Below are positions 14,388 through 28,299 of a stretch of DNA of 64,000 nucleotides, one piece after another. A program made the position numbers and the translations under genes. The notes under the pieces were generated by a model, which worked only from the letters and a program-made list of their open reading frames with translations, did not search any database and was not told where the DNA came from. How positions within the stretch are numbered: position 1 is the stretch's first letter; every line of letters begins with the position of its first letter. Source of the DNA: Candidatus Methylobacter favarea (GTDB lineage: Bacteria; Pseudomonadota; Gammaproteobacteria; Methylococcales; Methylomonadaceae); the NCBI RefSeq assembly GCF_902806695.1, contig NZ_CADCXN010000058.1, positions 62,001 through 126,000 of the forward strand, in the 5' to 3' direction.

Positions 14388-14894
14388 ATGATTATGTCAA
14401 CTTTGTCATCTGTGAACATTACGTCCGCCCCGGTAACCGATCAAGTCAGCCACTATGTTGTCTTCTGTCTGGATGACCAACGCTATGCCCTGCCTTTGCC
14501 CTCTGTGGAAAAGGTGGTGCACATGGTAGACATAACTCCACTTATGGATGCCCCGCAAATTATTGTCGGTGTAATTAATATGCAAGGGCGGGTGCTTCCC
14601 GTCTTTAATATACGTCGGCGTTTTCAACTTACTGAACGCGACATTGCTATGGATGACCAGCTTGTCATAGCGCATGCGGCGCACCGGACTGTAGCGCTGG
14701 TGGTCGATGCAGTAGATGGCCTGGTTCAATGTCCTGAACAGGATCTGCTTGTAACAGGCGATATACTTCCCAGTCTCGAGCATGTTGAAGGCATCATAAA
14801 ACTTCAGGATGGGTTGATTCTGATCCATTGCCTCGACGCGTTTCTTTCGGGCCCGGAAGAAAAGTCTTTGGACATGGCTCTGCAAACTTCCTGA
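14388..14894 (+). CDS. CheW-like coupling protein (WspB position)
   Basis: A 168-residue single CheW domain that would link the receptor hairpin to the CheA kinase. Family features: FCLDDQRYALPLPSVEKVV at the start of the fold, GVINMQGRVLPVFNIRRRF, and VVDAVDGLVQ. It opens a run of co-oriented chemosensory genes: cheR starts 7 bp later. In the Pseudomonas wsp operon the equivalent CheW (WspB) also precedes CheR-TPR (WspC). ATG 14394 is an alternative start two codons in. Confidence 0.92.
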   Translation: MIMSTLSSVNITSAPVTDQVSHYVVFCLDDQRYALPLPSVEKVVHMVDITPLMDAPQIIVGVINMQGRVLPVFNIRRRFQLTERDIAMDDQLVIAHAAHRTVALVVDAVDGLVQCPEQDLLVTGDILPSLEHVEGIIKLQDGLILIHCLDAFLSGPEEKSLDMALQTS

Positions 14895-14901
14895 AGCAAG
14901 C

Positions 14902-16347
14902 ATGCAGCCCGGTCTTTCTCCTTTACTGCTGTCCCGCTTGAGTGAGTTTATCGCTATCCACATGGGTCTGCACTTTCCTCCGGCGCGCTGGAATGATTTG
15001 CATCGTGCGATTTCCAGCGCAGCCTATGAACTCGAGTTCACCAACGTTGAAGCTTATGTTCGCGGGTTGTTGTTCGCTCCCTGGACGAATACCACGATTA
15101 AAACCCTTGCCGGCCATTTGACTGTGGGCGAAACCTATTTTTTCCGCGATATCCGAAGTTTTGACGTGTTGGAGGACTTTATTCTGCCGCAGCTTTTGCG
15201 TTCCCGCTGCGCCCCGAAGCAGCCTTTGCGCATCTGGAGCGCCGCCTGCTGCACCGGGGAAGAACCTTATTCCATCGCCATGCTTCTGGACAGACTCATG
15301 CCGGATTCCGGAGCATTGGACATTTCCATCCTGGCTACAGATATCACGCCACAGTTTCTGCAGAAGGCGGCCGATGGCCTGTTTAATGAATGGTCATTTC
15401 GCGGGACGCCAACCTGGATACGAGATCGTTATTTCAAGAAGAGAAAAGACGGTCGCTTTGAATTAGCTCAAAAAATCCGCGATAAAGTAGCGTTTTCCTA
15501 CCTCAACCTTGTTGATGATGATTATTCACTGCAAGGAAAGCATATTCCTGCAATGGATGTGATTTTTTGTAGAAATGTGCTGATGTATTTCACTCCTGAG
15601 CAGGCAAAAAAAGTAATCGAAAAACTTTATCATTCACTTGCTGATAAAGGCTGGCTGATTGTCAGCCCTGCCGAGGCTTCCCATACCTTATTCTCTTCTT
15701 TTACGCCTGTCGAACTTCCGGGTATCGTGCTTTATCAAAAGATAGCGCATTCCGAACTGACAGATTCAGCTCCCGGCTCCCCTATTCCTTCCAGTGCAGC
15801 CTCAGCTGATTTTTTATCTACGCTAGAACGCCTGTCCGCGGCGTCCTCCTCAGTGCTTCCCCAAGCCGCGCTTTTACCGGAGCCGCCTGCTATTAGTGCG
15901 GGCTCTCAACCTGACGACTGTGAAACGGTCTCACGCATAGCCCGAAATTATGCCAACCAGGGCAGGTTTACAGAAGCGGTTGAATGGGCTGAAAAGGCAT
16001 TGGCCGTTGACAAGCTTAATCCGGCCCATTGTTATTTGCTCGCCACCATTCGACAGGAGCAGGGAGAGGGGAAGATCGCCATGCAGTTACTGATGCGCGC
16101 GCTCTATCTGGACCCTGATTTCCTCCTCGTACATTTTGCTCTGGCTAACATGCACCTGTCGCAGGGCCGACGTGACAAGGCTGACTGGTATTTTAACAAG
16201 GTGCTGAATTTGCTGGAGGCCTATTCGCAGGATGACATCTTGCCGGAATCGGAAGGCCTGACAGCAGGCCGGCTTGGGGAAATTGTCGTGCTTATGCAAT
16301 TAAATTTACCTCGCCCGACAATGCTGTATAAAAGTGAGGCCGTATGA
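14902..16347 (+). CDS. CheR methyltransferase with C-terminal TPR repeats (WspC-like)
   Basis: A 481-residue SAM-dependent receptor-glutamate methyltransferase. The all-alpha N-domain is followed by GETYFFRD (about residues 76-83), the SAM loop SAACCTGEEPYSIAM (about 113-127) and VIFCRNVLMYF near residue 220. After an Ala/Ser/Pro-rich linker (about 290-335) come two or three TPR units (about 345-430), with ANQGRFTEAVEWAEKAL the clearest. CheR-TPR is characteristic of Wsp-like systems whose receptors lack the NWETF-type tether, and the MCP here also lacks one. It overlaps the next gene by 4 bp (ATGA). Confidence 0.93.
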   Translation: MQPGLSPLLLSRLSEFIAIHMGLHFPPARWNDLHRAISSAAYELEFTNVEAYVRGLLFAPWTNTTIKTLAGHLTVGETYFFRDIRSFDVLEDFILPQLLRSRCAPKQPLRIWSAACCTGEEPYSIAMLLDRLMPDSGALDISILATDITPQFLQKAADGLFNEWSFRGTPTWIRDRYFKKRKDGRFELAQKIRDKVAFSYLNLVDDDYSLQGKHIPAMDVIFCRNVLMYFTPEQAKKVIEKLYHSLADKGWLIVSPAEASHTLFSSFTPVELPGIVLYQKIAHSELTDSAPGSPIPSSAASADFLSTLERLSAASSSVLPQAALLPEPPAISAGSQPDDCETVSRIARNYANQGRFTEAVEWAEKALAVDKLNPAHCYLLATIRQEQGEGKIAMQLLMRALYLDPDFLLVHFALANMHLSQGRRDKADWYFNKVLNLLEAYSQDDILPESEGLTAGRLGEIVVLMQLNLPRPTMLYKSEAV

Positions 16348-17009
16348 AGCGCAAAGAATCCATGGCAGTAAAAAAGAAAACCACCGGCATCGACTGGCAG
16401 GAGATTGGGCAGCGTATGAAAGCCGCTCGCGCCGCTATCGAGCATGACTGGTCGCCCTCCCCCGACGAAAGCAGACAGATTCTGAAGACGCGGGCGCAGC
16501 AGCTGGCCCAGGAGCCGATGCCGGCGGATAACGCCGGTGAGCGCATCGAAGTAGTGGAGTTCAGGCTGGCTTATGAGCACTATGCGGTTGAATCCCGATA
16601 TGTACGCGAGGTGTGCCCTTTGGAAAACCTGACTCCCTTGCCGTGCACGCCGGCGTTCGTGCTTGGCATTGTCAATGTACGAGGAGAAATTGTTTCCGTG
16701 ATTGACCTCAAAAAATTTTTCGCTCTGCCCGAGAAAGGGCTGACCGACCTTAACAAAATCATCGTACTCCAGTCCGACGCTATGGTATTCGGTATTTTAG
16801 CTAATGCGATCTGCGGCGTGCGCAGCCTGGCCCTATCTGCTCTTCAAGGATCGCTGCCCACCTTTAGCGGCCTCCGCGAAACCTATCTGAAGGGGGTAAT
16901 GAGTAAAGAAGGTATAGTGATTCTTGATGCCGGCAAGCTGCTCACGGATGAGAAAATCATCGTCCGTGAACAGGTTGACGGCGCCACAGCTGATGGTTGT
17001 AAAAGCTGA
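16344..17009 (+). CDS. CheW-like coupling protein with N-terminal extension (WspD position)
   Basis: A 221-residue second CheW. The first 65 residues form a charged helical extension (DWQEIGQRMKAARAAIE), as in WspD proteins; the CheW fold then starts at EVVEFRLAYEHYAVES and includes GIVNVRGEIVSVIDLKKFF. It begins inside the end of the cheR gene (ATGA overlap), showing translational coupling. Two different CheW proteins are expected in a Wsp-like array. Confidence 0.9.
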   Translation: MKRKESMAVKKKTTGIDWQEIGQRMKAARAAIEHDWSPSPDESRQILKTRAQQLAQEPMPADNAGERIEVVEFRLAYEHYAVESRYVREVCPLENLTPLPCTPAFVLGIVNVRGEIVSVIDLKKFFALPEKGLTDLNKIIVLQSDAMVFGILANAICGVRSLALSALQGSLPTFSGLRETYLKGVMSKEGIVILDAGKLLTDEKIIVREQVDGATADGCKS

Positions 17010-17097
17010 TGAAAAGCAATAAAGGAATCGATGAATGAATATAATCAACCGACGTCCACCGGCAATACGAAAGTTGGAATTGAATAAAAGGGCATTT

Positions 17098-19044
17098 ATG
17101 GCCAATAAAAAGATTACGGTTCCATGCCGGCCCCTTGTCATCCCTTTGATGGCTTTGGCTATCTGGCTTGCGTTTATTTTCGTTTGCGCAGCCGCCGCGG
17201 CTGCTGATTCGGCAGAATCCATAGCGCCGGCTGATCTTTCCCGCATGAGTTTGGAAGAACTGACCAATATCGAAATATCTTCGGTATCCAAACGTGCGGA
17301 GCCGCTGATCGACGCGGCCGCCTCGGTTTATGTCATAAGCCGCGAGGACATACGCCGCTACGGCGCCACCAGTATTCCCGAAATACTGCGGCTTGCTCCA
17401 AACCTCCAGGTCGCCAAAGTGGATTCAAGCCAGTATGCGATCTCGGCGCGCGGCTTCAACAGCACCACAGCCAACAAGCTGCTCGTGCTTATCGACGGGC
17501 GCAGCGTTTATACGCCCTTGTATTCAGGCGTATTCTGGGATGTTCAGGACACCATGATCGAGGATATAGAACGTATTGAAGTGGTCAGCGGCCCCGGCGG
17601 CACTTTATGGGGCGTTAATGCAGTCAACGGCGTCATCAATATCATCACAAAATCCGCCGGCGACACCAAAGGCGGCCTTTTAAGCGCCGGCGCCGGCAAT
17701 TACGAGCATGGCGGAGGCGTCCGCTACGGGGGTCAAGCGGGTGAAAATATCGCTTATCGCGTTTACGCCAAAGGCTTTGAACGGGATAATACTTTTAACC
17801 CGAAAGGCGGCAATATTGATGACTCATGGAGAAAAGGGCAACTGGGCTTTCGTCTGGACTGGGGAAAAAACAATGATACTCTAATGCTTCAGGGCGATGC
17901 GTATGAAGGATCTATCGACCAGAAAATCCTGGATGACAAGTCGCTTTCCGGCGCGCATTTGCTGGCGCGATGGGATAAAACCCTGGCGGCCGGCTCGGCT
18001 GTCCAGATTCAGGCTTATTTCGACCAGACGCGGCGCATCTATCCAGGCACTTTCGGTGAAGTGCTTAATACCTATGACATTACCGCGCAACATCGCTTCA
18101 GTCTGGGCCGGAGCCATGATATCGTCTGGGGCGGCGGCTACCGTTATGCGCGCGATGATGTCAGCAACAGCGACGTGCTGGCCTTTCTTCCCGGCCAGCG
18201 CGACCTGGCCCTGGCTAATGTTTTTGCGCAGGATACTGTTACGCTCACCGAGCAATTAAAGCTGACCCTCGGCGCGCGGCTTTCCTACAACAATTACACC
18301 GATCTGGAAGTCCAGCCCAATATACGGCTTGCCTGGAAACCTAATGAGCAGGTTCTGCTGTGGTCGGCCATTTCTCATGCCGTGCGCACGCCGTCTCGGC
18401 TGGACAGCGATTTTTTTATTCCGGGCAATCCGCCTTTCATACTTGCCCTTGCCGGCGGCCTCGATTTTCAATCCGAAAAGCTGACGGCCTTTGAGCTCGG
18501 CTACCGCATGCAGCCGACGCCGAAATCGGCGTTTTCAATCTCGGCGTTTTACAATATCTATGATGAGCTGCGCAGCCTGGAGCCCGTGAGCGCCAGCTCC
18601 TTCGTAATAGCCAATATGATGGAAGGCGATACCTACGGCCTTGAACTATGGGGCAGCTACGCGGTAAGCGACTGGTGGCAGCTTAAAGCCGGCTATACCT
18701 ATCTCAGGAAGCATTTACGCCTGAAGCCCGGCAGCAACGATCCTTTCGGCGCGCCATTGGCGGGCAATGATCCTCAAAACCAGTTTTCAGCACGCTCGAT
18801 CATGAATCTTTGGCATAACGTTGATCTCGATTTAGTTCTGCGCACGGTGGACAGCCTGCCTGCTCCCGCTGTTCCGGGATATGTCACGATGGATGGGCGC
18901 CTGGGCTGGAAGTTTTTAAAAAACACGGAGCTGTCGCTGTCAGGGTTCAACCTGCTCGATAATCGGCATCCGGAGTTTGGCAATGCGCCTGGACGCAGCG
19001 AAATTGACCGGACCTTCTATGTAAAAGTGCTATGGAATTTTTAA
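17098..19044 (+). CDS. TonB-dependent outer-membrane receptor
   Basis: A 648-residue receptor with a signal peptide (LVIPLMALAIWLAFIFVCAAAAA), an N-terminal segment SLEELTNIEISSVSKR that is common to a subgroup of plugs, the plug domain (ISREDIRRYGATSIPEILR to NAVNGVINIITK) and a 22-strand-type barrel ending in FYVKVLWNF. Such receptors normally import a ligand with TonB energy. This subgroup tends to be encoded beside YfiR-family genes (recollection), so it may sense rather than feed. It is inserted in the chemosensory operon between cheW and the MCP gene, co-oriented. ATG 17035 is an alternative start with its own AAAGGA; 17098 gives the better signal peptide. Confidence 0.9.
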   Translation: MANKKITVPCRPLVIPLMALAIWLAFIFVCAAAAAADSAESIAPADLSRMSLEELTNIEISSVSKRAEPLIDAAASVYVISREDIRRYGATSIPEILRLAPNLQVAKVDSSQYAISARGFNSTTANKLLVLIDGRSVYTPLYSGVFWDVQDTMIEDIERIEVVSGPGGTLWGVNAVNGVINIITKSAGDTKGGLLSAGAGNYEHGGGVRYGGQAGENIAYRVYAKGFERDNTFNPKGGNIDDSWRKGQLGFRLDWGKNNDTLMLQGDAYEGSIDQKILDDKSLSGAHLLARWDKTLAAGSAVQIQAYFDQTRRIYPGTFGEVLNTYDITAQHRFSLGRSHDIVWGGGYRYARDDVSNSDVLAFLPGQRDLALANVFAQDTVTLTEQLKLTLGARLSYNNYTDLEVQPNIRLAWKPNEQVLLWSAISHAVRTPSRLDSDFFIPGNPPFILALAGGLDFQSEKLTAFELGYRMQPTPKSAFSISAFYNIYDELRSLEPVSASSFVIANMMEGDTYGLELWGSYAVSDWWQLKAGYTYLRKHLRLKPGSNDPFGAPLAGNDPQNQFSARSIMNLWHNVDLDLVLRTVDSLPAPAVPGYVTMDGRLGWKFLKNTELSLSGFNLLDNRHPEFGNAPGRSEIDRTFYVKVLWNF

Positions 19045-19628
19045 CGATTCTGCAACGCATAGTGACTCGTTCCAACCGCGCCCATCTGTGGCTATTCGTC
19101 TTTATGGCGCTGACATCCGGCGCCGTTGCCACGGCCCATGCCGGCGTAGAGGAATATGCCTTGAAAGCCGCCTTCCTGTATAAGTTCGGACTATTTGTCG
19201 AATGGCCCGGCTCAGCGTTTTCATCTCCGTCCAGCCCGGTAAACCTGTGTATTGCCGGAGAAGATCCTTTCGGCGAAGCTCTTGATAAAGTGGTAGCCGG
19301 GGGGCGTATCAACGGCCGGAATGTCATGATCCACAGACTCAAAGAGATGGAACCGGATTCAAGCTGTCACATTCTTTTTATCGGCGGTTCCGACGCTGAA
19401 AGCAAAGCCAGGATGATTAAATCTGTTCGCGGCCGCAATGTGCTTACGGTAACCGATGCCGGCAACTCTGAAACGAGCGCAGCGATCATTAACTTTGTAA
19501 TTGCCGATAACCGCGTACGCTTTGACATTAATGATGAAGCGGCAGCGCAAAACGGCCTGGTTCTCAGTTCCAAACTAATGAGCCTCGCGCTCAATGTCAA
19601 AAAAAGAACATCCAAGGAAAACCGATAA
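19032..19628 (+). CDS. YfiR family (DUF4154) periplasmic protein
   Basis: A 198-residue exported protein: signal peptide (LWLFVFMALTSGAVATAHA), then the family start VEEYALKAAFLYKFGLFVEWP, a central NLCIAGEDPFG strand, SCHILFIGGSD and the IINFVIADNRVRFDIN strand near the C-terminus. In Pseudomonas YfiR is the periplasmic repressor of the CHASE8 diguanylate cyclase YfiN. Its only two mature cysteines are Cys73 and Cys112, 39 residues apart; from memory the Pseudomonas protein has a disulfide with the same spacing. The start overlaps the TonB receptor's end by 13 bp and its stop abuts the MCP start, so the three are translationally coupled. Confidence 0.92.
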   Translation: MEFLTILQRIVTRSNRAHLWLFVFMALTSGAVATAHAGVEEYALKAAFLYKFGLFVEWPGSAFSSPSSPVNLCIAGEDPFGEALDKVVAGGRINGRNVMIHRLKEMEPDSSCHILFIGGSDAESKARMIKSVRGRNVLTVTDAGNSETSAAIINFVIADNRVRFDINDEAAAQNGLVLSSKLMSLALNVKKRTSKENR

Positions 19629-21167
19629 ATGAACTGGCTGGCTGATTTACGTATCCGGGCAAAACTGACGCTGGTGACTGTGCTGACCAGCGCCATCTCA
19701 CTGCTTTTGGCTAGCGCCATCATTATTGTCTATGACAATTATGCTTATCATGCTCAAAAAACCGGCGAGATTTCTGCGCAAGCCGGGGTGATAGCCGCCA
19801 GCGTGAATGCCACGCTGGAATTTAATGATCCCAAGGCAGCGCAGGAATATCTGAATCCGCTCGAAGCCAACCCGGCAATTTCTGCGGCCGGCGTATATGT
19901 GCGTGACGGCTCGCTTTTTGCCGCCTACTCCCGCTCCGGAGCCCGCCCGCCGCCAGCTTCAATCGAATCTCAGACGCAACCGCTTGAAGATAGCGAGCTT
20001 GCCGTTTTCTGGCCGGTGCAACAAGGCCAGCGACGGATTGGCACCGTTTATCTGCGCGCCAGAATTGAGCCCCTGGCAGTTCGCATCACGCGCTTTGGCG
20101 GCATTATTCTGCTAGTAATGGTAGGCTCGCTGTTGATTACGCTGCCGATTGCCATGCGTTTGAATTCAGTCATTGCGGATCCGGTGCGCGATATTGCCGA
20201 GGCTGCATCGCGCATCGCCGGCGGCGATCTCAGTGCCCGGGTCGAAGCTGTGCAACGGGCCGATGAGATTGGCGTGCTGATAAATACTTTCGCTCATATG
20301 ATAGTCAATTTGCGTAACATGACTCAGGAGATCAGCGAAGTAGCCCAGGTGCTTGCCGGCACCACAGGTGAGATTCTGGCCAGCACTGCGCAGGTATCCG
20401 CCAATGCTACCGGCACAGCCGCCGCCGTAAAAGAAACGACAATCACGGTGGAAGAGGTAAAACAGACCGCTCAGGTAGCCAGCCAGAAAGCGAAATACGT
20501 TTCCGACAGCGCCCAGAAGGCGTCGCAGGTTTCCAAGACCGGACGCAAATCGGTTGATGATACCATTCAGGGCATGCACCGCATCCAGGAGCAAATGCAA
20601 TACATCGCTGAAAGCATCGTGCAGCTGTCCGAACAGAGTCAGGCCATCGGCGAGATTACTGCTACTGTCAATGGCCTGGCGGAACAGTCAAACCTGCTTG
20701 CGGTCAATGCCGCTATCGAGGCGGCTAAGGCCGGCGAGCAGGGCAAGGGCTTCGGCGTGGTGGCCCAGGAAATTAAAAGTCTGGCCGAACAATCCAAGCA
20801 GGCGACGGCGCAAGTGCGCGCTATTTTAGGCGATATTCAGAAAGCCACCAGCGCCTCGGTACTCGCTGCAGAACAAGGCAACAAGGCTGTTGAGTCAGGC
20901 ATGAAGCAATCCACTGAAACCGGCGAAGCCATCCGGCTGCTTGCCGACAGCATCAGTGAAGCCGCACAGGCGGCTACCCAGATTGCTGCGTCCAGCCAGC
21001 AGCAGATGGTGGGCATGGATCAGGTAGCGTTGGCAATGGAAAACATCAAGCAGGCCAGTTTTCAGAATGTCTCAGGCACCAAACAAGCGGAAGTGGCCGC
21101 TCAAAGATTGCATGAACTGGGACAGAAGCTGAAGCAACTGGCCGCGCAGTACAAGGTTTTATGCTAA
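19629..21167 (+). CDS. Methyl-accepting chemotaxis protein with CHASE8-like sensor (WspA position)
   Basis: A 512-residue receptor: TM1 about 14-35; a periplasmic part of about 120 residues with [19 protein letters not shown] and [16 protein letters not shown], which resembles the CHASE8 domain of YfiN; TM2 about 157-178; HAMP to about 235; and a long coiled-coil signalling hairpin with the tip [20 protein letters not shown] near 350-370. The hairpin is like those of ACF-class (Wsp-type) receptors. There is no C-terminal NWETF-like pentapeptide. The gene starts directly after the yfiR-like stop, with AAGGA nine bases upstream. The ligand may be the YfiR-family protein itself. Confidence 0.92.
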
Positions 21168-21200
21168 CTATGCGGCGACGTTTGTCAAGCTAATTGGATC

Positions 21201-23516
21201 ATGCCCGGGCAGAGTGAGGAATTTCTAAAGAGACTGGTGCCGATTTTCCGAATCGAGGCGGATGAGCATCTTAAAATAATGACTTCGGCACTTATCGAGC
21301 TGGAAAAATCGCCGCCGGAAAATCGGCAAGCCGAAATCATTGAAACCATATACCGGGAAGCGCACAGTCTGAAAGGGGCTGCCCGCACGGTTAACTTCAG
21401 AGAGATTGAGTCGATCTGTCAAACGCTGGAAAGCGTATTTTCAGGGTTAAAAAGCAGGCGGCTGACTATCACCGGATCTTTATTTGAGCTCCTGTATCAG
21501 GTAATCGATGGCATTGCCGGCCTGCTTGCGCCGGTGCCGGATGGAAACAAGCGGGAAACGGCTGGAACGCCAGGCGCAGCGCTGGTTCGCCGGCTCGAGG
21601 ATGCCCTGCGCGGAAGAGATAGCATGGCTGCAGCTGAAGAATTAATGTCACCCGATGACTCCACCTCATCCGAACAACTCCCGCATGCGCCGGCCCAGAC
21701 GCGTGACGCCGATGTGATGCATACGCCCTATCAGGCATTCAGCTTTTCAGCTGACACCGTCAGGGTCTCTACAGTGAAGCTCGATGCCATGATAAGACAG
21801 GCGGAAGAGTTCCTGTCGCCGCGCTTGGCTTCAGCGCAGCGCGCCAAGGAATTAGGCGAAGTCACTGCTGCTCTGGCAAGCTGGAAAAAGCAGCGCTCTG
21901 GACTTCGCCCTGCATTGCGGCAAATCGAGCGCTATGTCAACGAAACGGGTGCCAATAATGGCGCAGCTAAAGAGCTCCAGGAGCTTCCCAAGCTGCTGGA
22001 ATATATGGAAGCGGAAAAGCTTTTCCTGAAAAACCTTGACGAACAGCTACTGAGGATAAGCAAGTTAATCAGTCATGACCAGCGCATTCTTGAAAATATG
22101 ACCGATAGCCTGCTGCACGATGTAAAGGCAATACATCTGCAGCCGTTTTTTTCTTTAGTCGAGATTTTCCCCCGCTTTACCCGCGAACTGGCACGGGATC
22201 AAGGCAAACAAGTGGAACTGATCATCCAGGGAGGCGAACTCAAGATCGATCGGCGTATTCTGGAAGAGATGAAGGATCCGCTGATTCACATATTGCGCAA
22301 TTGCATAGATCACGGCATCGAGCCGCCCGCCCTGCGCCGGAACAAAAGCAAGCCGGCCAAGGGCACTATTACTCTTGCCATTGCTCAAACAGACAATGGC
22401 AAGGTTGAAATCCTCATTGCTGACGATGGAGCAGGCATTGAAGCCGCCAAGCTAAGGGCAGCCGCGTGTAAACTCGGCTTTGTTAGTGCCGACGAAGCCG
22501 AGCAATTAGGCGACGCCGAAGCGATGGCGCTTGTTTTTCAGTCCGGCATTTCCACCAGCCCTATTATTACCGATGTGTCGGGACGGGGACTGGGCCTTGC
22601 GATTGTGCGGGAAAAAGTCGAACGCCTGGGCGGGGCTGTATCGCTTGCGTCAAATCCTGTTACCGGCACATCCTTCAGAATTACCCTGCCGCTCACCTTG
22701 GCCACTTTCAGAGGCGTTCTTGTTTGCGCAGGCGAACAACTTTTCGTCATTCCTGCCGCCAGTGTCGAACAGGTGATGCGAATAGAGGAAAAAGACGTCC
22801 GAACGATGCAAAACCGGGAAACGATCCTGCACGATGGCCAGGCAGTTTCACTCGTATGGCTCAGCGAGGTACTGGAATTTCCTGCCAAGGCAGCCTCAGC
22901 ACAGACCTGCGTGGTTATTCTCTGCCTGGGCATGATCCGGGTTGCGTATCGGGTGGAAGATATACTTGGCGAGCAGGAAGTGTTGGTTAAATCGCTGGGA
23001 AAACAACTGATGCGGGTACGCAATGTCACCGGCGCCAGCGTTCTCGGAACTGGCCAGGTAGTGCCGGTGCTGAATGTTCCTGACTTGCTGAAATCGGCCG
23101 TAAAATGCGCTAAGGGGCCCTTCATTGCCGCCAGCGAAAAACCTGAACCGGAAAAACCCTCCATTCTGGTGGTAGAGGATTCGATTACTTCAAGATCCCT
23201 GCTCAAGAATATACTGGAGGGTGCAGGTTATCAGGTTACGACTGCCGTGGATGGAGCGGATGCCTATACTGCAATAAAAGCCGGAACCTTTAATCTGGTA
23301 GTATCCGATGTGGAAATGCCGGGAATGGACGGTTTTGAGCTTACTGCCAGGATTCGCGAAAATAAACAGCTGGGAGAATTACCAGTTATATTGATAACGG
23401 CGCTGGATTCACGTGAGTATCGCGAACGGGGCATCGATGCCGGCGCCAGCGCCTATATAGTAAAAAGCAGCTTCGACCAGAGCAATTTGCTGGAAGTTAT
23501 CCAGCGGCTGATTTAA
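21201..23516 (+). CDS. Hybrid chemosensory histidine kinase CheA-REC (WspE-like)
   Basis: A 771-residue kinase. Hpt domain (1-105) with phospho-acceptor His55 in REAHSLKGAA; a long helical dimerisation region (about 190-310); HATPase with N box RNCIDHGIE, G1 DDGAGI and G2 GRGLGLAIV; a CheW-like P5 domain (about 500-630); and a C-terminal receiver (about 648-771) with ED, phospho-acceptor Asp703 in VSDVEMPGMDG, the Thr of LITALDS and the Lys of YIVKSS. Single Hpt plus terminal REC matches WspE. It would phosphorylate its own receiver, the downstream CheB and possibly the 1115-residue REC protein. Confidence 0.93.
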   Translation: MPGQSEEFLKRLVPIFRIEADEHLKIMTSALIELEKSPPENRQAEIIETIYREAHSLKGAARTVNFREIESICQTLESVFSGLKSRRLTITGSLFELLYQVIDGIAGLLAPVPDGNKRETAGTPGAALVRRLEDALRGRDSMAAAEELMSPDDSTSSEQLPHAPAQTRDADVMHTPYQAFSFSADTVRVSTVKLDAMIRQAEEFLSPRLASAQRAKELGEVTAALASWKKQRSGLRPALRQIERYVNETGANNGAAKELQELPKLLEYMEAEKLFLKNLDEQLLRISKLISHDQRILENMTDSLLHDVKAIHLQPFFSLVEIFPRFTRELARDQGKQVELIIQGGELKIDRRILEEMKDPLIHILRNCIDHGIEPPALRRNKSKPAKGTITLAIAQTDNGKVEILIADDGAGIEAAKLRAAACKLGFVSADEAEQLGDAEAMALVFQSGISTSPIITDVSGRGLGLAIVREKVERLGGAVSLASNPVTGTSFRITLPLTLATFRGVLVCAGEQLFVIPAASVEQVMRIEEKDVRTMQNRETILHDGQAVSLVWLSEVLEFPAKAASAQTCVVILCLGMIRVAYRVEDILGEQEVLVKSLGKQLMRVRNVTGASVLGTGQVVPVLNVPDLLKSAVKCAKGPFIAASEKPEPEKPSILVVEDSITSRSLLKNILEGAGYQVTTAVDGADAYTAIKAGTFNLVVSDVEMPGMDGFELTARIRENKQLGELPVILITALDSREYRERGIDAGASAYIVKSSFDQSNLLEVIQRLI

Positions 23517-23533
23517 CCGAATCACGGAAATTT

Positions 23534-24607
23534 ATGCTCAAAGTCCTGATTATAGAAGACTCTCCTCCGAAACGTGAATTCCTCATCCATCTCCTGGCCT
23601 CGGCCCCCGATATTCTTATTATCGGGGCGGCCAGGAACGGTGATGAGGCGCTTGAAGCGGTGCAGCGCTATCGTCCGGATGTAATCATGATAGATATTAA
23701 TATGCCGAAAATGGGCGGCTTGGAAACGGCGCGCCGCATTATGGAAACCCATCCCACACCGATTGTCGTCGTTAGCGGCAGCGCTGGTTTACAGGAAGCT
23801 TTAACGACATTTCGGGCTATGGAGGCAGGCGCTTTGGCTTTAGTGGGTCTGCCCTCGGGACTCGCTGATCCGAATCACGACATTATGGCCGGAGAATTGC
23901 TGCAAACAGTGAAGCTGATGGCGGAAGTCAAAGTGGTGCGGCGCTGGCCGCAGGCCAAATATCATACGACAGCAGCCCGGCAGCCGGGAAATATAAGCCT
24001 TACTCAGGAAACTTCACGCAGCAAGGTGATTGCAATCGGCGCTTCAACCGGCGGACCGCCTGTGCTCCAGTCTATTCTCGCAGCATTGCCAAAAAATTTC
24101 TCGCTGCCATTGCTGATTGTTCAACACATGGCTCCCGGTTTTGTTCAGGGTTTTGTAGACTGGCTGAGCCAGTCATGCAGTATGCCCGTTCATGTGGCCA
24201 GACATGGCGAGTACATAATTTCCGGCCATGTCTATGTGGCTCCTGATGAATTTCAGATGAAAGTGGAATACGGCGGAAAAATCCTTCTCACCCGGGATGA
24301 ACTTAAAAACGGGCTGCGTCCTTCGGTTGCGTATCTGTTCAGGTCAATTATGGAAGTTTACGGTAGCGGTAGCGTAGCCTGCCTGCTTACCGGCATGGGC
24401 CGCGATGGCGCGGAGGAATTACGGCTATTGAAGGAAACAGGCGCAATAACCCTTGCCCAGGATAAGGAAAGTTCGGTAGTACACGGCATGCCCGGCGAAG
24501 CGATTAAACTTGATGCAGCTAGGTTTGTTTTACCGCCCGAAAAAATAGCCGCATTCTTGATCGAGGCGGCGAAAAAATATGAAAAAGTTCCATTAAAAAA
24601 CTTATAA
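23534..24607 (+). CDS. cheB: Chemoreceptor glutamate methylesterase CheB (WspF-like)
   Basis: A 357-residue REC-methylesterase. The receiver has the acidic pair IIEDS and Asp54 (MIDINMPKMGG), but where the invariant Lys-Pro is expected the sequence is GLPSG with Leu106, so the signalling lysine is missing. The esterase domain keeps its triad: Ser171 in GASTGG, His in VQHMAPGF and Asp in LTGMGRDGAEEL. It would counter CheR-TPR and reset the receptor. The missing lysine suggests weakened or altered control by phosphorylation. It starts 17 bp after cheA. Confidence 0.93.
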   Translation: MLKVLIIEDSPPKREFLIHLLASAPDILIIGAARNGDEALEAVQRYRPDVIMIDINMPKMGGLETARRIMETHPTPIVVVSGSAGLQEALTTFRAMEAGALALVGLPSGLADPNHDIMAGELLQTVKLMAEVKVVRRWPQAKYHTTAARQPGNISLTQETSRSKVIAIGASTGGPPVLQSILAALPKNFSLPLLIVQHMAPGFVQGFVDWLSQSCSMPVHVARHGEYIISGHVYVAPDEFQMKVEYGGKILLTRDELKNGLRPSVAYLFRSIMEVYGSGSVACLLTGMGRDGAEELRLLKETGAITLAQDKESSVVHGMPGEAIKLDAARFVLPPEKIAAFLIEAAKKYEKVPLKNL

Positions 24608-24951
24608 ACACTGATCACATCTGGAACCCAAGCCCGTTTCCTTAAATGCCGGCTATTATGTTGAAATTGACTATACTTGAAAATATTTGTTAATCAGGCT
24701 GTGCCAAGAAACCCAAAGCAAGGTTAAAAAAATCAGGTCGGAGGTTAAGTGGAAACAAAAGGCTTTACTGAGGGAAATAAACCCACAGCCAATAAGCGTG
24801 AAATTGCGTTTAAACAAATACTGCGCCACCTGGCGGTGTTTTATTATAGCTTTAACGCCGAATTTCACTGTTGGAAATCGTTAATGTTGTTTGGACCTTC
24901 TTTATTGAAATGCCTGAGCTGTATGACTATGGAGGGTGAAGGGATTAAGGC
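24608..24951. other. Gap between cheB and the GGDEF-EAL gene
   Basis: A 344-bp stretch with no convincing gene. Two overlapping short plus-strand frames (24687-24884 and 24749-24967) are not protein-like in composition. The gap is large for this otherwise tight cluster, so the EAL gene may have its own promoter. I found no clear terminator after cheB. Confidence 0.4.
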
Positions 24952-27900
24952 ATGGACAATCACATAAGAAGAGATAATTCGAATAATAATATCGAAATCC
25001 TTATTGCCGAAGACAGCAGGACGCAAGCCGAACAACTGCGTTTTTTACTTGAGGAGCGCGGCTATAAAGTAACTGCCGCAGCTAACGGCAGGGAAGCCCT
25101 TGAGTCGGCGCATACGCGCATGCCCTGGTTGATTATCAGCGATATCATTATGCCTGAAATGAACGGCTACGAACTGTGCAAGGCAATTAAATCCGATATT
25201 ACTCTGAAACAAATCCCCGTTATTCTGGTAACCACGCTGTCTGATCCAAAGGATGTAATTAGCGGTCTTGAATGCGGCGCGGACAATTTTATCCGAAAAC
25301 CCTATGATGATTGCTATTTGCTCTCGCGCATTGACTATTTGCTGATGAACCTGCAAATGCGCAAAAATCAGAAAATGCAGTTGGGGGTGGAAATCGACCT
25401 TGGCGGCAGCAAGCATTTTATTACCGCCGAGCGCCAGCAAATCCTGGATCTGCTTATCTCCACCTATGAACAGGCTATTCATATCAATAGCAAGCTAAAG
25501 CAGCGTGAACAGGAACTGGCCTGTTCCAACCTGGTACTCAATGGACTGTACCGTATCGCAGAGGGTCTCAACCAGGCTTTTAGTGAACAGGACGTGGTAG
25601 AAATAGCCCTGGAAAGAACAATGCAAGTACCGGGCATAGAATACGGCTGGATTTATTTGCGCGAAGACACTGCCCATTTCCGCCTTGCCGCCACTCGTAA
25701 TTTACCCATTACCCTGAGAATACCCGAGATACTGGATGAAAATTGCATCTGCTGCCGCCAGCTTGCTGCAGACCAGATTAAAGAAAATATCAAGGTCTTT
25801 ACCTGCGAGAAATGTGAACTGTCGGGCAAGGCTGATGTTGCTAGGGACAAACTGTCCGGCCATGTCTGCGTGCCGCTGTGGAATGGCGGACGCATTATCG
25901 GACTGATGAATCTGGCCGGCTCACGGGACAGCTTGTACAATGAAGAGAAACTGAAGGTTCTGGACAATGTCGGCAATCAAGTAGCTGTGGCGCTTGAACG
26001 CGCGCGCTTACACGAGCACCTCGAGCAACTGGTTAAGGAAAGAACCCGGGCGCTCACGCTCGAGATAGAGGAACGCAAACGCATCCAGGAAGACCAGGCG
26101 CGTCTTGTCGCTATTATAGAGGCCACGCCCGATCTGGTGGTTACCCTAACACCCGAGGGCGGCATGCTTTATGCCAATCAGACAGGCCAGCAAATACTGG
26201 GATTAAAGAAAAATAATGACCTGTCCAGACAGTCCCTGCATGGCGGCTTTCCTGAATGGATGGGCAAGCGGGTGATGAAGGAAGGCATTCCGCATGCGAT
26301 TCGGCATGGCGTCTGGAGCGGAGAAACGACCGTCTTAAGCTATGATGGCCGCGAGATGCCCTTTCTTCAAGTCATCATTGCGCACAAGGATAAGGACGGA
26401 TCGCTACAATATTTATCCACTATCGGCCGCGATATTACCCAGCTTAAGGCGGACAAAGCCAGAATTGTCCGTCTAAACCGGATTTACAGTTTACTCAGCG
26501 GCATTAATACGACCATCGTACGTGTCCGCAAGGCAGAAGAACTGTTCGTTGAGGCCTGCCGCATCGCTATTGATCTGGGTAAATTTATGTTCGCCTGGAT
26601 CGGGATGCTTGATAACAGCACCCTGAAAATTAAGCCCATTGCAACAGCAGGGTATGACGACGGCTATTTGGCGCAACTAAATTTAAGCGCCGCAGCCGCA
26701 AGTTCAGACGCCTGCCGCTTCGTAACAGAAGTTATTGCACAGGCAAGGCCGTTTATTTGCAACGACATTGCTACGGATGACCGTGTGCAAGCCTGGCGCA
26801 GCGCTGCATTAAAGCGGGGTTACCGCTCAGCCGCAGTGCTGCCGCTGATCCTGGAAATGCGGACGGTTGGCGTATTTGTGCTATATGCAGCGGAGGCAAA
26901 TGCGTTTGACAAGGAGGAAATGGCGCTGCTAGTCGAAATGGCGGGCGATATTTCATTTTCTCTTGATCATCTTGAAAAAGAGCAACTGATCAATTATCTT
27001 GCCTGCTTTGATGCCGTTACCGGACTGCCGAACCGCGCGCTGTTTCAGGACCGCGTGGATCAGTGGATAGGTACTGCAAACCTTGATCAAAGAGAGTTTT
27101 CCTTAATCATGCTGGATCTGGAACGGTTCAGCAACATTAATGAATCTTTCGGCCGCCGAGCTGGTGATGATCTATTATGCCAGTTTACCCGGCGGCTGAC
27201 TGCAATATTGGATGAAACCGATATTCTGGCGCATCTTTCAGGCGACTACTTTTGCATTGCTACCCTTCGCGGCGATAAAAGTCTCGAGGTCGCCCATATT
27301 CTTGAAATGATTTTATCGGGCATTCAAAATCAACCGTTTCGTATCTGCGAAGCCGAGTTGCGTGTTTCGGCCAGGGCAGGAATATCTTCCTATCCTGCCG
27401 ATGGACAGGACATGGAGACGCTGTTACGCAATGCCGAGGCAGCTCTGAAAAAGGCTAAACGCTCGGGCGACAAATATCTGTTTTATACGCCTGAATTCAA
27501 TGCGCAGGTTTCCGAGAAGCTGTCGCTGGAAAATAAATTGCGGCGGGCGCTTGAACAGGAACAACTGGTTCTGCATTACCAGCCGAAAATTGAGCTTATT
27601 AACGGCAGGATTATCGGACTTGAGGCCCTGCTGCGGTGGAATGATCCTGAAATCGGCCTGGTCCCGCCCATGAGATTCATACCTCTGCTTGAAGAAACCG
27701 GACTTATTATCGAGGCAGGACGCTGGGCACTTGAAAAAGCCGTAGCGGACTCGCTGGTCTGGCAGGCAAAAGGATTCCGCTCGCCGCGAATAGCGGTCAA
27801 TGTATCGCCGATTCAGCTTCGGCAGAAGGATTTTGTCAATACAGTGGCGAGTGCCCTAAGCGGCGCCGGCAAGGGGATGGTTGAACTGGAGCTTGAAATT

Positions 27901-28299
27901 ACGGAAAGTCTCATTATGCAGGATATCGAGGCCAATATCCAAAAACTGCGCCGCATTCGGGAGATGAATGTAGAAGTATCCATAGACGATTTTGGTACCG
28001 GCTATTCTTCTCTCAGCTATCTGTCCAAACTACCTGTAAACACCTTGAAAATTGACCGCGCCTTCATCACCCACATGAGCACTAACAGCGATGACCTGTC
28101 TATCGTCTCAACCATCATTTCCCTGGCCCACACATTAAATCTGAAGGTCGTCGCGGAGGGTGTGGAGACTGATGAACAGGCTAATCTGCTGCGACGGCTC
28201 AAATGCGACGAAATTCAGGGATTTCTGTTCAGTCCGGGCGTTCCCGCACCGCAGATCGAAAAATTTTTGCTTGAAGAAAAAGCCTTGATCAACAAATAG
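24952..28299 (+). CDS. REC-GAF-PAS-GAF-GGDEF(degenerate)-EAL response regulator, predicted c-di-GMP phosphodiesterase
   Basis: A 1115-residue cytoplasmic protein: receiver 1-125 (phospho-acceptor Asp64 in ISDIIMPEMNG, Lys in IRKPYD); GAF about 195-350 with cysteines 265, 267, 268, 285 and 288; coiled coil; PAS about 385-495; second GAF about 510-650; GGDEF about 670-830; EAL about 850-1105. The GGDEF signature is SGDYF (763-767), lacking the second Gly-Glu pattern, so cyclase activity is unlikely. The EAL domain looks complete: E891-A-L, NVSPIQLR, ELEITES, DDFGTGYSS (1012-1020), KIDRAF and VAEGVET. It takes the position of WspR but should hydrolyse c-di-GMP. A purine-rich site precedes the ATG. 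Confidence 0.92.
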   Translation: MDNHIRRDNSNNNIEILIAEDSRTQAEQLRFLLEERGYKVTAAANGREALESAHTRMPWLIISDIIMPEMNGYELCKAIKSDITLKQIPVILVTTLSDPKDVISGLECGADNFIRKPYDDCYLLSRIDYLLMNLQMRKNQKMQLGVEIDLGGSKHFITAERQQILDLLISTYEQAIHINSKLKQREQELACSNLVLNGLYRIAEGLNQAFSEQDVVEIALERTMQVPGIEYGWIYLREDTAHFRLAATRNLPITLRIPEILDENCICCRQLAADQIKENIKVFTCEKCELSGKADVARDKLSGHVCVPLWNGGRIIGLMNLAGSRDSLYNEEKLKVLDNVGNQVAVALERARLHEHLEQLVKERTRALTLEIEERKRIQEDQARLVAIIEATPDLVVTLTPEGGMLYANQTGQQILGLKKNNDLSRQSLHGGFPEWMGKRVMKEGIPHAIRHGVWSGETTVLSYDGREMPFLQVIIAHKDKDGSLQYLSTIGRDITQLKADKARIVRLNRIYSLLSGINTTIVRVRKAEELFVEACRIAIDLGKFMFAWIGMLDNSTLKIKPIATAGYDDGYLAQLNLSAAAASSDACRFVTEVIAQARPFICNDIATDDRVQAWRSAALKRGYRSAAVLPLILEMRTVGVFVLYAAEANAFDKEEMALLVEMAGDISFSLDHLEKEQLINYLACFDAVTGLPNRALFQDRVDQWIGTANLDQREFSLIMLDLERFSNINESFGRRAGDDLLCQFTRRLTAILDETDILAHLSGDYFCIATLRGDKSLEVAHILEMILSGIQNQPFRICEAELRVSARAGISSYPADGQDMETLLRNAEAALKKAKRSGDKYLFYTPEFNAQVSEKLSLENKLRRALEQEQLVLHYQPKIELINGRIIGLEALLRWNDPEIGLVPPMRFIPLLEETGLIIEAGRWALEKAVADSLVWQAKGFRSPRIAVNVSPIQLRQKDFVNTVASALSGAGKGMVELELEITESLIMQDIEANIQKLRRIREMNVEVSIDDFGTGYSSLSYLSKLPVNTLKIDRAFITHMSTNSDDLSIVSTIISLAHTLNLKVVAEGVETDEQANLLRRLKCDEIQGFLFSPGVPAPQIEKFLLEEKALINK

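Follow-up and report, generated by a model that had tools for sequence, protein, structure and literature searches.

A TonB receptor, YfiR and CHASE8 input module joined to a Wsp-like chemosensory cluster in Candidatus Methylobacter favarea

The gene cluster

The window analysed here is a stretch of 64,000 nucleotides from the gammaproteobacterium Candidatus Methylobacter favarea (order Methylococcales; contig NZ_CADCXN010000058.1, positions 62,001 to 126,000). At positions 14388-28299 it holds, on the forward strand, a Wsp-like chemosensory gene cluster in which a TonB-dependent outer-membrane receptor, a YfiR-like periplasmic protein and a methyl-accepting chemotaxis protein (MCP) are encoded side by side. 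An earlier note, made from the DNA alone, had described nine genes there, and all nine are present, in the order and with the domains that it gave:

14388..14894, + strand: cheW-like coupling protein 1 (PF01584, 90.8 bits)
14902..16347, + strand: cheR methyltransferase with C-terminal TPR repeats (PF01739, 168.7 bits; several TPR models)
16344..17009, + strand: cheW-like coupling protein 2 (PF01584, 98.6 bits)
17035..19044, + strand: TonB-dependent outer-membrane receptor, TOL_0244 family (PF00593, PF07715; NF053590, 869.8 bits, cut-off 645)
19032..19628, + strand: YfiR-like periplasmic protein, TOL_0243 family (PF13689, 142.2 bits, cut-off 24.9; NF053591, 159.7 bits, cut-off 125)
19629..21167, + strand: MCP with first transmembrane segment (TM1), CHASE8, second transmembrane segment (TM2), HAMP and MCP signalling domain (PF17152, PF00672, PF00015)
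21201..23516, + strand: cheA-REC hybrid kinase (Hpt, HATPase, CheW-like and receiver domains, by domain search)
23534..24607, + strand: cheB methylesterase with receiver (domain search)
24608..24951, no strand: 344-bp gap with a terminator-like hairpin at 24823-24839 (sequence)
24952..28299, + strand: output protein, REC-GAF-PAS-GAF-GGDEF (SGDYF, degenerate)-EAL (intact motifs) (domain search, motifs)

The TonB receptor gene runs 13 bp into yfiR, and the MCP gene follows without a gap and in the same frame (yfiR ends at 19628, the MCP gene begins at 19629), which agrees with the note's description of overlapping or abutting genes. The cheR gene and the second cheW overlap by 4 bp, and no intergenic gap between the first cheW and cheB exceeds 33 bp. 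The output gene may be a separate transcript because a 344-bp gap and a terminator-like hairpin follow cheB; such hairpins are no commoner in the region than in shuffled sequence.

A CHASE8 sensor domain in the MCP

Why should a YfiR-like protein be encoded directly ahead of an MCP? The periplasmic domain of the MCP, at about residues 35-156, is a CHASE8 domain (PF17152, 64.2 bits) and is followed by HAMP (44.6 bits). CHASE8 is also found in E. coli DgcN/YfiN (115.7 bits), whose gene adjoins yfiR. Residues 8-243 of the MCP match the DgcN/YfiN model itself at 57.8 bits, where the cut-off is 325, and residues 9-227, with 189.4 bits, fall narrowly short of the cut-off of 194 for the YfiR-associated histidine kinase model NF053592. 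Because the sensor domain of the MCP is CHASE8, the window YfiR adjoins its known kind of partner. The genome contains two YfiR and two CHASE8 matches, and in both places YfiR adjoins CHASE8, which argues that the unit is not a chance one. The second YfiR module (L005, G000:C48, 3192-8318) encodes YfiR, a CHASE8-GGDEF-EAL protein and a TonB receptor, beside genes that appear to encode serine-cycle (methylotroph) enzymes.

The passages of Malone 2012 (PMC3375315) on the YfiR-YfiN interface propose that YfiR binds an AAVVF stretch of YfiN centred on F70, and describe a hydrophobic patch of YfiR for YfiN binding (Val160, Phe162, Leu183), the sites having been mapped genetically. The counterpart of F70 in the window MCP is F65, and this position is phenylalanine in 155 of 156 CHASE8 proteins, E. 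coli DgcN and the window protein included; apart from the phenylalanine, the window stretch ATLEF keeps AAVVF only partly. By alignment, the patch corresponds to V162, F164 and L185 of the window YfiR, and among 156 YfiR homologs these columns hold V in 72 and I in 49, F in 122 and L in 26, and L in 125, respectively, with W58 being W in 154. Because the MCP carries a CHASE8 domain with the YfiR-docking motif, YfiR very probably acts on it, as the earlier note had supposed, presumably through direct contact. In AlphaFold models in which YfiR reads through into the MCP sensor half as a single chain, run twice (22 and 101 rows; mean predicted local accuracy, pLDDT, 84 and 92.7), the YfiR domain matches solved YfiR structures (TMt 0.72-0.79), and the CHASE8 domain matches CitA-like periplasmic domains more weakly (TMt 0.65-0.76, E 7e-4 to 5e-3). 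We take these models as evidence on the two folds and not on contact between them.

The MCP as a chimera

On sequence comparison, the window MCP is a chimera of a kinase-type sensor half and an MCP signalling half, joined at about residue 232, the end of HAMP. One informative relative is a locus (L165) that encodes a TonB receptor, YfiR and a CHASE8-HAMP-PAS protein whose PAS domain runs into an apparent kinase H-box at the contig end. Identity between the two is 67% in the TonB receptor, 68% in YfiR, 74% in CHASE8, 95% in TM2 and 70% in HAMP, and beyond HAMP it falls to 19-40%. Against the first MCP of a sister cluster from the order (L146), the window MCP has 15-44% identity before HAMP and 54-84% after it, with 79% in the signalling domain. 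The signalling halves of the CHASE8-MCPs of Andreprevotia and Polaromonas are 87-88% and 93% identical, respectively, to those of neighbouring MCPs in the same cluster. The signalling half therefore tracks the local array, and the sensor half tracks the TonB receptor and YfiR. The natural join at the end of HAMP shows where kinase-type and MCP-type receptors are exchangeable.

CHASE8-MCPs come in two lengths, 512 amino acids (window, L145, L201) and about 590 (L168, L170, L171, L174, L175), the extra 77 or so residues of the longer form sitting between HAMP and the signalling domain; the two lengths may reflect separate fusion events. The window genome has only two MCP-signal matches, the second having its own CheW domains on another contig: a 782-amino-acid frame (G000:C107:10881-14678) alongside three CheW-domain matches, perhaps a motility chemosensory system.

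The unit in other genomes

The TonB-YfiR-MCP unit occurs in at least eight loci, the window included, and a TonB gene is adjacent in all eight. Six of the other seven are betaproteobacterial by name:

L145 (genome G246): 4.4-kb contig that ends with the MCP
L168: Pseudogulbenkiania metagenome-assembled genome (MAG); 15-kb contig on which no che gene was found
L170: Andreprevotia chitinilytica DSM 18519; two further MCPs before the TonB receptor
L171: Methylotenera MAG; begins within the TonB receptor; two further MCPs after the CHASE8-MCP
L174: Betaproteobacteria MAG; order cheW-cheR-cheW-TonB-YfiR-MCP as in the window
L175: Burkholderiaceae; window order from cheR onward
L201: Polaromonas sp. 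P2-4, with split frames; order cheW-cheR-cheW-TonB-YfiR-MCP as in the window

The MCP-linked YfiR proteins are 45-52% identical to that of the window; for L145, the values are 48% (TonB receptor), 52% (YfiR) and 62% (MCP). The nearest CheA in G246 (48%) lies on another contig and begins 124 bp from that contig's end; with L145 ending at its MCP, this fits one cluster split by the assembly. The search for YfiR genes beside MCP genes in che clusters that the earlier note had proposed thus yielded seven further loci, five with che genes alongside, and the recurrence of the three genes inside che clusters bears out its view that they are built as one unit.

Spread and outputs of the TonB-YfiR-CHASE8 module

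The TonB-YfiR-CHASE8 input module is widespread, and most often it leads into a histidine kinase or a GGDEF protein. YfiR is present in 57 of 369 genomes of the class sample, and the tally, which leaves out five weak or partial matches (G154, G233, G058, G350, G036), comprises 91 YfiR genes in 89 loci. A CHASE8 gene is adjacent to 62 of the 91 and absent beside 29. The 62 partners are 40 histidine kinases, 16 GGDEF proteins, one MCP and five cut or unclear proteins, so the MCP form is rare, at one of 91 YfiR genes. A TonB gene adjoins at least 53 of the 91, a lower bound obtained with two TonB queries. Within the order, 31 YfiR genes in 30 loci (29 of the best-scoring and the second YfiR locus of the window genome) are linked to 21 kinases, five GGDEF proteins, no MCP and five others. 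A GTDB scan with two short peptide patterns from the window and L145 YfiR gave, for the best 80 of 94 relatives, 80 loci and 84 YfiR genes with 59 kinase, six GGDEF, six MCP and 13 other partners, a count biased towards MCP cases because both query proteins are themselves MCP-linked.

We built a quick YfiR tree of 152 rows (151 different, L165 having been entered twice) from which rows under 160 amino acids and rows with a cut, other or absent partner were left out; for L175, whose YfiR frame is 803 amino acids, only the YfiR end was used. The MCP-linked rows lie within one 14-row group, intermixed with kinase-linked rows, the support of 83 for this group being below the starring threshold of 95. 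On this tree the MCP label must change three times, two of these changes being required by starred branches. As a loose pattern, the N-terminal motif of the window TonB receptor (MSLEEL..IEISSVSKR) occurs in 87 of 110 YfiR-adjacent receptors longer than 500 amino acids, and also in 11 of 21 other receptors at those loci, with evident false matches.

Two loci (L189, L265) have two consecutive TonB-YfiR pairs ahead of one CHASE8 kinase, possibly a two-ligand input to a single kinase. L211 and L225 were dropped as further cases: a CHASE8-GGDEF gene also lies upstream, and they may be two separate modules.

Sister clusters and probable transfer

The seven nearest CheA clusters in the order belong to genomes G382, G444, G435, G486, G479, G550 and G482. 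Four are complete from cheW to cheA (L095, L146, L150, L151) and have one or two MCPs each, none with CHASE8; no TonB receptor or YfiR gene lies in the stretch from cheW to cheA. In the remaining clusters (L147, L148, L149, of genomes G435, G486 and G479) the contig ends inside the MCP gene or upstream of it, so that a module may lie beyond the cut; the YfiR matches listed for these genomes are 33-35% identical to the window YfiR, lower than the MCP-linked YfiR proteins. In all four complete clusters the MCP stands between cheW and cheA (with both cheW genes in L095, L150 and L151, one in L146), so this place seems ancestral rather than caused by the insert, and the earlier note's picture of a receptor moved behind an inserted pair does not hold. 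The TonB-YfiR-MCP unit is patchily distributed: the four orthologous clusters lack it, while G246 and six named records have it, a mixed outcome for the refuting condition of the earlier note, absence from orthologous clusters. Elsewhere in the order, the other genome of the window's genus included, YfiR matches are only distant. G+C content is 52.7-55.5% in the stretch between the second cheW and cheA, compared with 43.7-51.5% around it. Composition and tree point to transfer of the whole module rather than random insertion, and the module probably arrived horizontally from betaproteobacteria.

The output protein

The receiver of the output protein is 60-75% identical to those of seven relatives' outputs adjoining cheB and 56% identical to that of L175, compared with 35% and 30% for the window's own CheA and CheB receivers and 51% for a more distant system. 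The output receiver is therefore orthologous to the relatives' outputs. The GGDEF domain is degenerate (SGDYF), and the EAL domain has EALLRW at 891 and DDFG at 1012, which we take to be intact active-site motifs. It aligns to the MucR phosphodiesterase (5m1t) over 253 of 266 residues, and by these features probably hydrolyses cyclic di-GMP (c-di-GMP) in the cell. A gene for a REC-EAL protein lies downstream in three sister clusters (L148, L149, L151), so the window is not alone in having a link to c-di-GMP hydrolysis. Judged from the outputs scanned in relatives, the effector with degenerate GGDEF and EAL is a feature of the window cluster and not of the family. The phosphodiesterase output of the earlier note is probable for the window, where the EAL motifs are intact, but does not extend to the relatives, whose scanned outputs are REC-kinases. 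Relative to that note, the YfiR-MCP link is now better supported, and both novelty and phosphodiesterase as a general output are weaker.

Relation to known systems

How much of this is new? The parts are known, and the TonB-YfiR-CHASE8-MCP assembly is a new variant in which the known modular core of YfiR and CHASE8 is coupled to a Wsp-like array. With YfiBNR (P. aeruginosa; yfiR-dgcN-yfiB in E. coli) the cluster shares a YfiR-family protein beside a TM-CHASE8-TM-HAMP protein and the conserved hydrophobic docking residues, but its output is an MCP rather than a GGDEF cyclase and its operon includes a TonB receptor. The window YfiR scores 42 bits against the model of YfiR proper (NF053586), under the cut-off of 85, and no YfiB-type lipoprotein is encoded among the cluster's nine genes, to which that search was confined. 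Also close are the NCBIfam families NF053590, NF053591 and NF053592, which bear TOL_0244 and TOL_0243 names, the window TonB receptor and YfiR both exceeding their family cut-offs. Unlike the YfiR-associated kinase of that set, the window protein has an MCP signalling domain in a che operon and no kinase half. In the passages of PMC6304351 concerned, TOL_0244 is up sevenfold on n-C28 alkane relative to Tween 80. OmpS of Alcanivorax dieselolei, as cited in PMC6304351 and PMC5174103, is a TonB receptor reported to sense alkanes and set off a chemotactic response; the citing passages describe no YfiR or MCP operon with it, and its similarity of 40.3% is to TOL_0244, not to the window protein.

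The likeness to Wsp, which rests on gene and domain content rather than on comparison with a Pseudomonas Wsp sequence, consists of two CheW proteins, CheR-TPR, CheA-REC, CheB and a REC output. This part of the Wsp plan that the earlier note had seen was upheld; order, sensor and output differ. The window MCP gene is sixth, between the second cheW and cheA, whereas the Wsp order, as far as the sources cover it, is wspABCDEFR; its sensor is CHASE8, that of Wsp 4HB_MCP (in the relevant part of PMC8846402); its output is REC-GAF-PAS-GAF-degenerate GGDEF-EAL, that of Wsp either WspR (REC-GGDEF) or WspH (a hybrid kinase); and the TonB receptor and YfiR are additions. The sections of PMC8552884 (Kessler 2021) on Wsp types assign a hybrid kinase output, such as the sister clusters have, to the H type of Burkholderia, the R type being that of Pseudomonas.

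The earlier note knew of no described system with this wiring. We recognised no description of the TonB-YfiR-MCP wiring in searches of the open-licence literature, mostly judged by title and the start of the abstract. The word TonB is absent from the main text of Malone 2012 (PMC3375315), and TonB and YfiR are both absent from the main texts of Kessler 2021 and of a CheR-TPR survey (PMC3447774). However, the note's statement is not fully supported: one sentence of Malone 2012 already states that MCP domains replace the GGDEF domain of YfiN in some Yfi homologs, and the NCBIfam families for the TonB receptor, the YfiR-like protein and the associated kinase are already named.

Proposed mechanism and its rivals

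The best explanation overall, which we judge about evenly poised between right and wrong as a whole, is a Wsp-like, non-motility chemosensory system driven by a TonB-YfiR-CHASE8 input module. The CHASE8-MCP, the only receptor in the cluster, would take its input from this module: ligand occupancy of the TonB receptor, or transport through it, would change the amount of YfiR bound to CHASE8, and the change in binding would shift TM2 and HAMP and so set CheA activity. CheA would then phosphorylate the GAF/PAS/GGDEF-EAL protein at its receiver, and the EAL domain of that protein would hydrolyse c-di-GMP, while CheR-TPR and CheB would provide adaptation. That the TonB receptor is the input is fairly probable, and that CheA drives the EAL protein is likely; the sign of YfiR's effect on the array is something we infer.

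Several observations weigh against this explanation. The sole exception to the docking phenylalanine is an MCP case (L201, Polaromonas), which has serine there in a split-frame assembly. The read-through chain reached a predicted TM-score (pTM) of only 0.48 (22 rows) and 0.57 (101 rows), so that relative domain placement is unconfident, although such a chain is a weak test of contact because it has single copies and a tether. No adjacent TonB receptor was found, with the two queries, for 38 of the 91 YfiR genes in the class sample, and the TonB receptor is therefore not obligatory in YfiR systems generally. Across the 310 further genomes of the order that were searched, the best-scoring YfiR matches reach no more than 39% identity, and three other genomes of the family of G246 have no YfiR match. 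The output gene is set 344 bp away from cheB, and the relatives' outputs scanned are REC-kinases in five of six (L170, L175, L147, L095, L150; L175 is cut at its end, and L171 is cut after GAF).

Could YfiR itself be the sensor, of redox or envelope state through its cysteine pair C73/C112, with the TonB receptor only a co-transcribed transporter? The MCP array would then read periplasmic stress rather than receptor occupancy. The Discussion of Malone 2012 (PMC3375315), in the part concerned, proposes a redox input through YfiR that can work without YfiB; the chemistry of Cys71-Cys110 in YfiR points the same way, the C73 and C112 columns are cysteine in 135 and 143 of 156 homologs, and 24 of the 56 histidine kinase or GGDEF cases in the class sample had no TonB neighbour in the scan with two TonB queries. 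But the TonB gene adjoins the unit in every MCP case, receptor and YfiR each pass a dedicated NCBIfam cut-off, and L189 and L265 place two TonB-YfiR pairs before one kinase, and we regard this reading as unlikely, if the strongest of the rivals. Nearly as strong, and still rather unlikely, is the idea that YfiR binding switches the MCP on rather than off, as a co-activator or ligand carrier: nothing in the sequence fixes the sign and the receptors differ below HAMP, yet YfiR represses in YfiBNR according to the sections of PMC3375315 on that system.

It is improbable that only the input half of the explanation is right and that the GGDEF-EAL gene is an independent neighbour, CheA having CheB, its own receiver and unlinked regulators as partners. 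The gap and hairpin after cheB and the REC-kinase outputs of relatives would suit such independence, as would genome G444 (L318), in which cheB is followed by a REC-GGDEF gene that runs on the other strand; the orthology of the output receiver to outputs in the same place, well above its identity to the window's own receivers, and the REC-EAL genes downstream in three sister clusters speak for a link. Chance insertion of a TonB/YfiR pair beside an ordinary Wsp-type MCP, for which one could cite the absence of the pair from the four complete sister clusters and the higher G+C of the stretch, is extremely improbable, since the sensor half of the MCP itself belongs to the module and the unit recurs in at least seven other loci.

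What would a Wsp-like array with a TonB-YfiR-CHASE8 input mean? What known chemoreceptors recognise in the periplasm is, to our knowledge, either a ligand or a ligand-loaded binding protein. We tentatively suggest, holding both parts together a little short of an even chance, that an adapting, methylation-based array here takes its signal from an outer-membrane transporter via a periplasmic adaptor, measuring changes in nutrient capture at the surface and leading in this case to c-di-GMP hydrolysis, and that evolution has used the TonB-YfiR-CHASE8-HAMP block as a plug-in cartridge, with the end of HAMP as the junction, and has exchanged it between kinases and MCPs, it seems repeatedly. An outer-membrane transporter would then stand upstream of a chemoreceptor array, and YfiR, known as a cyclase repressor, would gain a general role as adaptor. 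A named strain, Andreprevotia chitinilytica DSM 18519, carries the system.

Other YfiR arrangements

Long "YfiR" open reading frames (ORFs) in L184, L232 and L285 were rejected as fusions, since on reading they seem to be over-extended frames. At L248 (1139-6798), an MCP gene with a PDC-type sensor and two HAMP models lies directly upstream of a YfiR/CHASE8-kinase pair. No CHASE8 was found by search in two proteins (L301:179-2881, L302:1912-4629) in which a YfiR domain, a long charged linker and a hybrid histidine kinase form one polypeptide; the linker looks coiled-coil-like to the eye, and the proteins are natural YfiR-kinase fusions.

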